Shown here piece by piece: positions 20,801 to 32,266 of a stretch of DNA of 64,000 nt. The stretch is from Dromaius novaehollandiae. Its lineage: Eukaryota > Chordata > Aves > Casuariiformes > Dromaiidae. Position numbers and translations under genes: made by a program. Each line of letters begins with the position of its first letter. Positions within the stretch are counted from its first letter, which is position 1. The stretch is from NCBI RefSeq assembly GCF_036370855.1, contig NC_088106.1, positions 32,626,501 through 32,690,500 on the forward strand. The letters are read 5' to 3'. Below the pieces are notes generated by a model, which saw only the letters and a program-made list of their open reading frames with translations, was not told where the DNA came from and did not search any database.

Positions 20801-23800
20801 GAATTTCATGAGGCTCCCGTGGGCCTGTTCCTCCAGCCTGTCCAGGTTTCTCAGAATGGCAGTCCTTATTGACTACCAGTTCAAGGTGGTCTGAAAACTT
20901 TCCTCCAGCTTCCCCAGGCCTTGTCTTACTCTTTCTTCTCCCTTCCTCTTGCTTTGTCTCTTTCCTACAGCCCACAGTGCTCCACAGGGACAGAGTCATT
21001 GCATAGCTCTCAACTTGGCCTTCTCTTCCTACATCTTCCCCAACTTCCCAAGGCAGGAGTGCAAAGTGGTCAAGTCCTGCACCCATCTGCTGTGCCTTCC
21101 ATCCCAGGAGAAATGGAAGAACCCTTTTCAAGATCTCTGCAGGGTGGTTTTGTTGGGGTGCAGCAAGGCTAACTTCTTTATGTGTTCCTTCCTTCCTTTG
21201 TATTTTTGCAGCTCTCAAAGGCACTGGGTGCTGTGGGGTCCTGCTCCAATGGAGGCTGAACTCCCCACATGCTTGGGAAGAATCATGATGGGCTCAGGCA
21301 GTTTCCAAGCAGCAGAGCAAACCATCTCTGAGCAGCCTGTCCATTGCCCGAGCTTAGAGGTCACTTGCCTTGGGAGCTACACAGGGCATCCCAGAAGCAG
21401 TGGGTCATTTTCCCCAGCTCCAGTGCACCTCCAAAACTCTGCCATAGCAGTGCATTCACTGCTCCCAAAACAAGTCCTCACTGCCAGCTGTCCCCTACTC
21501 ACATGATGGGTGCAATAAAGGCCACTCCCACCTCACAAGCAATTAGATAGTATCAAGACCAGGAGCTAAAATATATTTCTTAACATCACTAGCTTTGTAC
21601 CCCAGAGTTCAGAGGCAGAAGGACCCACATGATGGTCCAGTCCTTGTGTGTCTGAGACTGTTCAGTTCCTCCTGTGCTTCATTATGCTGATCCTTCCAGC
21701 TTATGCCAGACTGTACATAGCATTTCCACCCCCGGGAGACTAAGCTGCGTTCTGGATGGGGTGAGGCTGAGGGACTGCATGTTGGTGACAATCCATGGCC
21801 TCCCTTTTACAGAAACTGCCGGTGTGAACTGAAAAATGCCCTGCAGCAGACCACAGGGAAGAACCAGAAGAGGCCCAGCTATATCGTACAGATTCCTAAG
21901 CCACTGGGGAAGGATGTTCCCCCACACAGGCAGAAGAAAGCCATGCCAGATCCCACCTCAACAAAGAGCGCACAGTACATTTTTCAGCTGCAGCCAAGTT
22001 TCAGCCAGACAACACTGCTGGAAAGCAGCCCAGTCAGTCAAGAGGAGCCAAGTTTCAGCCAGACAACACTGCCGGAAAGCAGCCCAGACAGTCAAGAGTG
22101 GTTCTGGACAAAGCAACCTGTAGAAAGCAACAAGATGATGAAAACCTTTCTTTCATTCAAGACATTGAAATCCTACCTTCTTGGCCCTAGAAAAGCAGCC
22201 AAAGAGGGTCCTTCTCCAAGTATTCTCGGGAGCATCTCCACAGTTACGAGAGAGGCTGACGACAGCATCAGGAATACACTAACCTTTGCAAACAGCATCA
22301 CTGCAGAGGAGCATACGAGAACAGCATCACCCAGGACAATGCAGGTGTCATTACAAAGCCAGTTTCAAGCCACAGGTTCTCCCCCTCATAGATTGGTCAG
22401 CTCACCTGACCATGCTATGACAAAACCAGCAGAAGACCTATGGGCAGAAGAGTTTTACAGGACAGGTCTGAAAAGGGGATTGCTCCCAAGCTGGACAGAA
22501 GTGCCTATGGTTGAAAAGGCAGAACTTGGAGAAGGCCAGAAGGTCGAGGAAATCTCTTCTCAGGAAGCCACGTGCAAACCCAAGACCAATGTTGTTTTTC
22601 TGAAAGTCCATAAGAGTGCCAGCAGCACTGTCATGAACATCCTCTTCCGCTTTGGTGAGATGCACAACCTCACCTTTGCCTTCCCCGTCAAGGGTGGCAG
22701 CCAGCTCTTTTACCCACACCACTTCTTGGCAAGGTTTGTGCAAGGGTTCTCTGCTGAGAGTGCTCCGCAGTTCAACATCCTCTGCCATCACATGCGGTTC
22801 CTACGGCCAGAGGTAAGGGGCAAAGCCTGAACACTTTGGGAGGGAGGAAATGGATAGGGCAAAAGAGGCTAGCATGGAACGAGGTGGGACAGCCTTAAGA
22901 AACGTAGGCTCTTCAAGGATGAAGCTAAGGAGACAGGATTGCCCACTGGTACCCTAAGTATTATCTCCAGCTCCTGAGAGCTTCTGTTAACAGGTTTGAT
23001 AGATCATTGGGCTGTAAACTGAGGCACATTCCTGAGAGAAGCCAGAGGAAGGTGTCTGTAGCAGTCAGCAACTATCATCTCATTCTTTTCCAGTGGTACT
23101 TAGAGGAAGTCTTGTTACCTAGACAGGACTGGAGGGTACCAGCTACAAGAGGAGAACAACTTAAAGGCATCACACTTGCTAGCTCAGGCCAGCCATGGCC
23201 AGCATCCACCCTCTGACTACCACTTGAGATCACGCAGGTCTGGTGAAAAGCAAGAAAATAGGATCTGCAGTCCCATAGTGATAGGACACCCAGCTGTGGC
23301 AGCACACAGGGTGTGTTTTGGCTTTGGCTGCTCCCGTCCCCAGGTACCTCTTATAGGGCTCCCCACAGCTGACACAAGCACTCCTTTGATGAGTCATTCC
23401 CTGAAACCCTCTCCCAGGCCTCCGCAGCAACCACCATCTCAAACTCCTGAGCAAGCATTATGGGAACGAGCAAACAAGCCTACCCTCCCTCCCTCCCAAC
23501 CTTTAAACCTCCTTTCCTCCCTGCACAGGTGCAGAGAGTGATTCCAAGGACGGCCATATATTTCTCCATCCTGAGAAACCCAGTGCAGCTCATGGAGTCC
23601 TCCTTCACGTACTACAAGGGCACATCAGCCTTCTCCCGCGCCCACAGCCTGGAGGAGTTCCTCAGCCAGCCCTACCGCTTCTACAACCCTGCAGTTGGCG
23701 ACAGCCACTATGCCAGGAACCTCATGACCTTCGACTTTGGCTTCAATCCTGATGCAGACATCTCACCAAAGCGGGTGCACCTGATGCTGAAGGCCATTGA

Positions 23801-29594: not shown

Positions 29595-29779
29595 TCAGGC
29601 GCTCAGCTCCAAGTTGCTCTTCTCCCCTTTCTTCTTCCACCTCTGTTCTCTGCTGTCTCCAGGTACATGCACCACTCTTGCCTTGGGTATCCTATATTTG
29701 CTCTTCTGACTGTAAAGCAGGTTTTTCTGGAAAAGTCTTGGGATGTTCCCTTGGTATAGCAAGAGGGCAGCAAGCATTC
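29595..29779 (-). CDS. AQP12: AQP12 exon 3
   Basis: Acceptor TCTCCTTGCAG. It encodes the last membrane segment end and the basic cytosolic tail (GMLAALLLYQGNIPRLFQKN to NLELSA) and stops at 29595. The tail is Lys/Arg-rich. Confidence 0.95.
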
Positions 29780-32266
29780 CTGCAAGGAGAGGAGGCCATT
29801 TCCTTTATGTTGAATGTACGCCTTCAATGTGCAGCATCAAACGTGCCCACCCTCCCCATGGCTAAGCAATTATTCTGGAGACCCTTGCCACAATGCTGCT
29901 CATGACCAAAAGCCAGCTCAGCACAGCAAAAGTCCCCACCAACAGTATCTAGAAGGCCCTTGCTATGTTACTTTAAGGAGAGTTCAACCATCATGGCCTA
30001 AAAGTAAAAGCAAGGCTTGTTTTGGCTCAAAAGGGTTAAACCACACCAGTTCTTTGACAGTGGTCATCTTTTCCTGCTTTCTGCATTCCAGGCAGCAAGT
30101 ATACAGTTCACTGTGGTCTTCCTGAAGCTGCAGACAACCTCAAAAACATAGCTCAACCTATCATTTCCTAAAACATCCTAGCTTGATTCTCCCCAAGCTT
30201 GGCAGACTTTGGCCTGAGAGAGATTTTGTCTGTTTTGTCTATGTTCCATATAGAAATTGGATAAAACATAGTAAAAGCATGACTCAAGTGACAGGAAAGG
30301 AATATGAAAAAGGGCATTTGCCACTGGCAAGGCTGAGGTTCAGCCCTTCATCAGGAACAGTTTCTATTAACAGCATTTCCTCCTTGCAGGCCACCAGCGG
30401 ACACAGGGGAAGTGCCCAGTCCTCCCTAAACCTCCCACCCCCAACTGTCCTTTGCACTGTGGAGCAGTACCTCCCGGGCAGATCTCACCTGCAAGGGGCC
30501 CCAGCCAGTAAACTTGGATATACTCTTGCAGGCTGCTCCCTGAGCAGTGGAAGGTAACAGCTGTGGCAAGGACAGGATTGAAAAAGGCCCCTGTGAACGG
30601 CTCAGCTGCATGGGAAAGAAGCAGAGCAATCAGTCTCACTCACACGTGTAATTTTAGAGATTTGCACTGATAAGGACTATTGCATTAGTGGCAGGATCAG
30701 AGCAGCCTTGTTTCTGTACTGCTCTGGAAACAGATCCCCCAACCCTCCTTCTCTAACATCTCACATTCAGGTGGCTTTTGCTCTGCCTTTCCAGGACCTG
30801 CTTTCCAAAGAGCTTCCCACCATTCCCACCTTCCTGTCCATTTCCCCTGGGGATACTTTCAACCTTTGCAGTAGCTCACTAAGCCACTGGTGCCTTAGCA
30901 GCTTGACCAAGCCAAGTGTGGCAGACGTACCAAACCACAACCAGTGGGCTCCAGGAGATCTGCAGGGGGTACACTGGCAACCCCTCTCACCTTCCAGGAG
31001 AATTTGCAAGCTCCCTGCCAGCTGCAGACTCCACAGTCCTCTGCTAGCCATCCCCAGCTGCTGTGTCTCCTTGATTGTATAACAAGGGTAGCCAAAGGCC
31101 CCGCTGGCAAATCCCACCCTTGCTGCCCTGGGTCAGAGCTTTACAAGAAACAGAAGAGCTCATTAGGGCATCACGGAGGGGTTGCATCAGGGGAAATTCA
31201 ACGACTGTGCTCCCAGAGTCTTTGGGCAAGCTTCAGCATCGCTTGAGCCCACACTTCGCTTGTGAAATGGGGGTGAGAGTTTTACCTGCTTCACCTGGGC
31301 AGAACTGAGACAGTCAGGGCAGCAGTGAGGAGCCACAGAAGTGCAAGAGGAGAGAGGCATTCCCTAATGTTTTCCATAGCTGCCACTTAACATCCACAAT
31401 GTCCCTCAAGACCTCTAGCCTAGGAGTCAGGCTAGTTTCAGCATAGGCTGCCTGCTGCCTAGATCTCCTAACAGTTGTCTCCATCCAGCAGGAATACTCT
31501 CCAAAATGAGTAGAAAAAAAGTTTAGTAATCACCATCTCACACCTCAAGTCCTGGGTCTTGACTGAGACTGTTCCTTCCCCACAAATAAGGTGTTTTTCT
31601 GACATTTTTTTTTTATCTATGTGACATTGTAGAAAAGAAAAAAGGGAGGAGTTACTCACCTATATAAGCCAGCAAGGTGACAGTTGCTGCCAGGGCAGGG
31701 ACCCGGTACATTGGGCGACTGTGGTGGAACTTGAGAATCGCTAGGTGGAAAAGAAAAGAGCAGACACCTTCCACGAAGACACCATGAGACAATGACGTAC
31801 GGAGGGAGGAACTGCACTCCAAAGACATTAGGTTCTGGATGAGGTGGAAATCCGTCAGCTCCCAGGACCAGTAGTACTTAGTGATAACCTGGCCCATGCC
31901 CATGCCTATAAACTGGGCCAGAAGCTTGGCAGCAGTTGCGGCCAAGCCGGAGTCCAGGATCAGGAATTCTTGGAGAGAGACGGTCAGATTAGCAGATGCT
32001 CCATCGAATGAGGCGCCATGAGCCACAAAAAGAAGGAAGAGCAGAGTCAGGGCCACATCTGGGCCAAAGCCACCACCCCACAGGCCAATCTCCATCAGCA
32101 TCCTCAGTTCAAGGCAGCCTGCACACAACTGTAATGAGCCAACAAGTTCTCTGGCAAGACAACAGTATGCTCCAAGAGACAGAAGTCTTTTGGAAAGTTG
32201 CCTGCCTACCTCACAGATGCCCACAGTCAGGAAAAGAAAAGCAATAGAAACATTCAAGCCTGCCAT
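29595..32266 (-). CDS. AQP12: Aquaporin-12 (three coding exons)
   Basis: Superaquaporin of intracellular membranes; in mammals it is made in pancreatic acinar cells. Exons: 31660-32266, 30489-30605 and 29595-29779, joined with phase-1 introns to give 302 residues (human about 295). It opens MAGLNVSIAFLFLTVGICEV, as the family does, and has about six hydrophobic segments. The first pore box lies in GASANLTVSLQEF, so the usual NPT is NLT here. The second lies in FTGAFFNPVLATAV, so NPA is NPV. The superaquaporin cysteine nine residues after the second box is present (TFHC). The C-terminus FQKNLLYSQKSKYR matches AQP12 and not AQP11. The frame is intact with canonical splice sites, so it is not an obvious pseudogene. 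Confidence 0.95.
29780..30488 (-). other. AQP12 intron 2
   Basis: Canonical GTGAGA donor and TTGCAG acceptor. No other feature was recognised. Confidence 0.9.
30489..30605 (-). CDS. AQP12: AQP12 exon 2 (second pore box)
   Basis: 117 nt, phase 1 to phase 1. It encodes EPFTGAFFNPVLATAVTFHC and then EYIQVYWLGPLA. The NPV box is at 30571-30579 and the conserved cysteine follows nine residues later. Confidence 0.95.
30606..31659 (-). other. AQP12 intron 1
   Basis: GTGAGT donor, acceptor CTTTCCCATGCAG. Nothing else was recognised. Confidence 0.9.
31660..32266 (-). CDS. AQP12: AQP12 exon 1 (start and first pore box)
   Basis: Starts at the family-typical MAGLNV. An in-frame ATG at 32338 would add 24 residues, but it lies only seven bases past a TATA box and so is probably not transcribed. 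The exon holds LLFLLFVAHGASFDGASA, the NLT box (31982-31990) and VCSFLFHLAILKF. It ends in phase 1. Confidence 0.95.

Follow-up and report, generated by a model that had tools for sequence, protein, structure and literature searches.

The AQP12 gene and its two pore boxes

The window, a stretch of 64,000 nucleotides of emu (Dromaius novaehollandiae) DNA, carries a complete AQP12 gene on its minus strand (29595-32266). The gene has three exons and encodes 302 amino acids with no internal stop before the terminal TGA. Its parts are the following:

31660..32266, minus strand: exon 1 from the start codon at 32266, covering residues 1-202 plus the first base of codon 203; donor AG/GTGAGT
31982..31990, minus strand: box 1, AAT CTG ACC, Asn93-Leu94-Thr95, NLT in place of NPT
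30489..30605, minus strand: exon 2, with box 2 (NPV) inside; acceptor ...CAG, donor GTGAG
30571..30579, minus strand: box 2, AAT CCT GTC, Asn212-Pro213-Val214, NPV in place of NPA; the next residue is Leu215
29595..29779, minus strand: exon 3, C terminus and TGA; trafficking motif NLLYSQK (residues 261-267)

A preliminary description of this DNA had placed NLT and NPV at these same positions. Its letters and coordinates were right on re-reading of the codons, which are AAT (31990-31988), CTG (31987-31985) and ACC (31984-31982) in box 1, and AAT (30579-30577), CCT (30576-30574) and GTC (30573-30571) in box 2. The span that it gave for the feature, 30571..31990, runs from one box to the other and is shorter than the gene. 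Its statements that the frame is intact and that the cysteine following box 2 (C223) is kept also hold. Both introns are canonical (GT..AG), and no lesion was found in the frame or at the splice sites, so that a lesioned pseudogene was rejected. The intact frame of 302 codons, together with two altered boxes that both keep their asparagine, indicates that this is not a chance reading. The CpG observed/expected ratio is 0.15 for the whole gene and 0.23 for its coding sequence, and the Leu94 codon now reads TpG; the earlier suggestion that CTG arose from CCG by a CpG transition is compatible with these values, as a plausible origin only.

Searches with general models added little. Pfam returned no MIP match for exon 1, its only hit being DUF1176 (E 0.22) under its cut-off, and Rfam gave no match at gathering scores. 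A bacterial promoter scan upstream of the gene was empty, a type of scan that is uninformative for a vertebrate gene.

The closest solved relative of the protein was AQP11 9vxw (phmmer, E 1.1e-29). In this alignment NLT lies over NPC and NPV over NPA, which shows that Leu94 occupies the usual proline position; Gln118 of helix 3, aligned with 9vxw, is kept as well. The motif NLLYSQK fits the AQP12 C-terminal targeting consensus NL-phi-Y-X-zeta-[+], or YPD motif, drawn from 473 vertebrate AQP12s (PMC13344155). The disulfide-type cysteines of loops C and E, C151 and C223, correspond to human C139 and C211 with a constant offset of 12. At the same offset, Leu215 after box 2 corresponds to human Leu203, the leucine that replaces the filter arginine (LE.53) in AQP11/12-type channels. 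Both pore asparagines, N93 and N212, which are invariant in human AQPs, are present. Identity to human AQP12A was about 54% across 285 aligned columns, with a single gap of 12, for a human sequence whose numbering agrees with the published one. A separate AQP11 with NPC/NPA lies on another contig, C1, of the same genome. Judged by these sequence marks (C-terminal motif, Cys151, Cys223 and Leu215, and the separate AQP11), the gene is AQP12, as had been proposed, and not AQP11.

With exon 1 as query, the 1.47 Gb genome gave matches to AQP12 itself and AQP11 only. The gene is thus apparently single-copy, and the idea of a second copy was rejected. No relative was confirmed among 37 pattern matches in genome_contigs and 42 in viral_contigs, a search made with a single protein query that reaches close relatives only. 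A fragment of KIF1A, a neighbour of AQP12 in human, found no match in the window, and synteny with the human AQP12 region is therefore not shown.

Box sequences in other AQP12 and AQP11 proteins

A 2009 comparison of predicted transcripts gives box 1 of AQP12 as NPT for mouse, rat, chicken and one human transcript; a second human transcript is without the box-1 part, and box 2 is NPA in 5/5 sequences (PMC2966333). This bears out the earlier view that the boxes are altered relative to the usual AQP12. It also disposes of the objection foreseen there, that NLT/NPV might be normal across all birds: as chicken has NPT/NPA, a general bird state was rejected. The emu protein shares with chicken and mammalian AQP12 the threonine of box 1, and differs from them in having Leu instead of Pro at residue 94 (box 1) and Val instead of Ala at residue 214 (box 2). 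It has in common with human AQP12 the C-terminal targeting motif, the two loop cysteines and the leucine in place of the filter arginine, whereas Ser9, a PKC site in human and rat, is replaced by Ala. Ser7, the position of a PKA site in zebrafish, is present. Ser25 (RQLSKR), also in exon 1 near 32266-32190 (residues 7-25), may be an alternative kinase site.

Changes at the same two positions are reported in frogs. Xenopus AQPs2 is reported to have NSA/NPT or NSA/NPM, is expressed in pancreas and is linked to human AQP12 by the synteny text of the source; Xenopus AQPg2 is reported as NSA/NPA (PMC7392679). Like the emu gene, AQPs2 is an AQP12 that lacks the proline of box 1 and has box 2 altered at its third residue; the residues differ, with Ser and Ala in frog against Leu and Thr in emu box 1, and Thr or Met against Val in box 2. 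Thus both positions had been altered earlier within AQP12, and the NPT/NPA pair, which the emu gene lacks, is typical of AQP12 rather than defining. In gobies, the first box of AQP11b is replaced by SFI (PMC10295795). AQP11 (9vxw, NPC/NPA) belongs to the same superaquaporin branch as the emu protein, of which it is the closest solved relative, but retains both prolines and the box-2 alanine. A description of NLT/NPV in AQP12 was not found in the accessible parts of the open-access literature on avian and reptile AQP12, pseudogenes and selection. What is new here is this motif pair, the AQP12 protein itself being already known.

Association of changes in box 1 and box 2

A PF00230 search of the emu genome gave 32 exon matches, which were assigned to genes by position. 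This search listed neither the AQP11 nor the AQP12 exons, so that the count of aquaporins in the genome is a lower bound. Both boxes could be read in 12 genes, including AQP11 and AQP12 and counting the copies on contigs C33 and C35 once: 9 NPA/NPA, AQP11 with NPC/NPA, an AQP7-like gene with NAS/NPS, and AQP12 with NLT/NPV (the names of the paralogues are inferred). The third residue of box 2 is changed in 2/2 genes without the box-1 proline and in 0/10 genes with it, a split that simple arithmetic puts at 1 in 66, for small numbers and related genes.

Some of these genes have features of their own. The first box of the AQP7-like gene, NAS, is unlike the NAA of human AQP7 (L092, L094, L096, L097). 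Two contigs of sex-chromosome size carry an AQP3-like and an AQP7-like gene, at C33:61722069-61804012 and C35:75525624-75607589 (L082, L083, L090-L092, L094, L096, L097). These contigs (71.8 and 86.0 Mb) are 99.6-99.9% identical over four compared stretches of about 3.2 kb. They could be the two copies of the Z, or a Z with a W that has diverged little, as it has in ratites. This pair of contigs, and the mixture of very large with very small contigs, point to a bird genome. A 13th aquaporin-like match, C28:5268444-5268990 (L101), adjoins an NPA/NPA gene. Its box 2 is NPA, and box 1 is not clearly recognisable; read straight on it gives APA at that place, with a stretch resembling the first helix in a different frame. 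It may be a tandem copy that has diverged or decayed.

Bacterial channels gave a second view of the association. The DNA pattern G-(A/G/R/P)-H-x-N-(L/F)-A-V-(T/S) retrieved 69 loci, namely 39 NFA channels, 3 NLA channels and 27 loci that were not channel-like by eye. In the NFA channels (L005, L010 and 37 others), box 2 was NPN in all 35 readable genes; the 4 other genes were incomplete in the stretch read, and one of them proved to be NPN through its genome. Most of the records with this unusual paired motif bear names such as Arthrobacter, Cellulomonas, Actinotalea and Tersicoccus. Nearly all the records are named as Actinomycetota genera, and one Vibrio cholerae-titled record carries the same gene type. 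The 35/35 may represent one actinobacterial group and a single event. As for the NLA channels, that of Niallia is NLA/NPA in an open frame, that of Accumulibacter is NLA/NPA with two stops in frame, and that of Acidobacteria is NLA with one stop and an unreadable box 2. Two of the three are thus in broken frames, which fits the change of proline to leucine as a mark of decay.

A sample of an actinobacterial order comprised 59 searched genomes, 53 of them with a match; the 70 loci read are the upper part of the match list, and the matches outside them, many of which are partial, were left out. Among these 70 loci, 66 were NPA/NPA (two read by eye), 3 NPA/NPV and 1 NFA/NPN, and two further NPA/NPV genes (L107, L108) lay outside the sample. 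The NLA/NPA of Niallia and the lone NPA/NPV genes indicate that a partner change often accompanies loss of the proline without being required, and that NPV also arises on its own. Strict coupling of the two boxes is therefore only partly borne out, with 2/2 in the emu genome and 35/35 NFA/NPN on one side, and Niallia and the 3/70 plus 2 NPA/NPV genes on the other.

Probable consequences for the pore

Loss of the box-1 proline is compatible with function in other aquaporins. Human AQP7, with NAA/NPS, passes water and glycerol better than GlpF, and its structure has other packing in place of the proline-proline contact (PMC7339978). The aquaglyceroporin of Plasmodium falciparum, PfAQP, has NLA/NPS, with the same leucine as the emu gene, and its structure is solved (PMC7339978; PMC3787859). 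On the basis of the PfAQP structure, the amide thus freed was proposed to form a hydrogen bond with the serine of the opposite box in algal MIPBs, and the helix-3 glutamine normally points at the nitrogen of the box-1 proline position (PMC3111385). On the strength of AQP7, PfAQP and frog AQP12, proline loss alone does not imply loss of function, and it was rejected as proof of a lost function on AQP7 and PfAQP. The loss is rare; the alarm that the preliminary description raised was too strong in view of these three precedents.

The emu pair differs from these precedents in detail. As in PfAQP, Leu stands where box 1 usually has proline, and box 2 has a partner change at its third residue. However, PfAQP is an aquaglyceroporin and not a superaquaporin, and its Ser can hydrogen-bond the freed amide, which Val214 cannot. 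Human AQP7, a functional channel, and the AQP7-like gene of the emu genome (NAS/NPS) also lack the box-1 proline and have the box-2 alanine replaced, but belong to another subfamily and use Ala and Ser. Leu94 thus replaces the proline as in the compensated PfAQP/AQP7 type, while Val214 is not a Ser-type residue. Being non-polar it could act by packing only, and for this reason the emu AQP12 was not filed with that type.

In our reading, with a probability of about 0.6, AQP12 is here a complete, working intracellular channel whose central NPA pair has drifted into NLT/NPV, a derived state. The loss of the box-1 proline and the box-2 alanine, rare but with precedents, probably leaves a working and slightly altered channel. 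N93 and N212 would both still line the pore, and with both of them kept, water can still be oriented at the pore centre. The contact between the prolines of the two half-helices would be lost with Pro94, and packing of Leu94 and Val214 would replace the stacking, with the bulk of Val214 facing the lost contact. With leucine here, the backbone NH of residue 94 would also be free for Gln118, the glutamine kept in helix 3. Such an arrangement would be like that of AQP7 (NAA/NPS) and PfAQP (NLA/NPS), but with a hydrophobic Val where those have a hydrogen-bonding Ser. As NLLYSQK is intact, trafficking is expected to be intact, so that the protein should still reach zymogen-granule membranes and water and small solutes should still pass, perhaps at an altered rate.

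An early relaxation, in which this lineage no longer needed AQP12 and its pore motifs drifted first, before any stop or frameshift, is an unlikely explanation, yet one with several observations behind it. Both boxes are altered at once, leucine stands at the box-1 proline position in the two broken bacterial NLA genes, and the mammalian PKC site at Ser9 is an alanine. Moreover, AQP2 P185A, a substitution of the box-2 proline, is listed with diabetes insipidus (PMC6032259). As a point against the working-channel reading, one paper expects helix stability to be affected by any change of a proline in the boxes (PMC10010469). Against decay stand the 302 codons without internal stop, the canonical splice sites, both pore asparagines and the identity to the human AQP12A sequence (about 54%, 285 columns, one gap of 12). 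So do the trafficking motif, the cysteines of the two loops, the leucine of the filter and the glutamine of helix 3, whose retention speaks for a functional, partly compensated AQP12 rather than for decay. The choice posed in the preliminary description, a changed pore or an early step in loss of function, is thus not fully separable, and the retention of most functional marks (Ser9 excepted) tips it towards a working channel.

We regard as rather doubtful a bolder reading, according to which the two boxes changed in a coupled way and NLT/NPV became fixed in a single bird lineage, where a hydrophobic Leu-Val pair replaces the proline-proline clamp between the two pore half-helices and tunes the passage of solutes in zymogen granules. 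If true, Leu-Val would be a third way to keep the pore open, beside Pro-Pro stacking and the Ala/Leu-to-Ser solution of AQP7 and PfAQP. The working-channel reading itself, if true, would mean that the central proline of box 1 is dispensable in a vertebrate intracellular aquaporin with most functional marks intact, and the emu gene would be a natural double mutant for testing the paired evolution of both boxes. Transport and trafficking functions have recently been assigned to AQP12 (PMC13344155), so that the question is directly testable in oocytes.

A base-calling error or private allele at the Leu codon (31986) or the Val codon (30572) is improbable. A single C to T change would be enough for each codon, and people carry missense SNPs at the same box-1 proline, to Leu in AQP1, AQP10 and AQP11 and to Thr or Arg in AQP12 (PMC10010469); but the whole pattern needs two separate substitutions in two exons, and the contigs are chromosome-sized, with ordinary motifs in the other aquaporins save the AQP7-like gene and one unclear match. 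Least probable of all is that a larger bird clade, for example one order, has NLT/NPV as its fixed ancestral state, selected for another solute or rate in zymogen granules: the boxes changed as a pair with most other marks kept, and AQP12 of human and zebrafish is permeable to water, urea, H2O2 and methylamine (PMC13344155), which provides a function to tune, but the NPT/NPA of chicken means that the state is not common to all birds (PMC2966333).

Elsewhere in the window, a 54-base unit is present in two copies with a 96% match at 21992-22098, within a long open frame of the plus strand (21721-22827).
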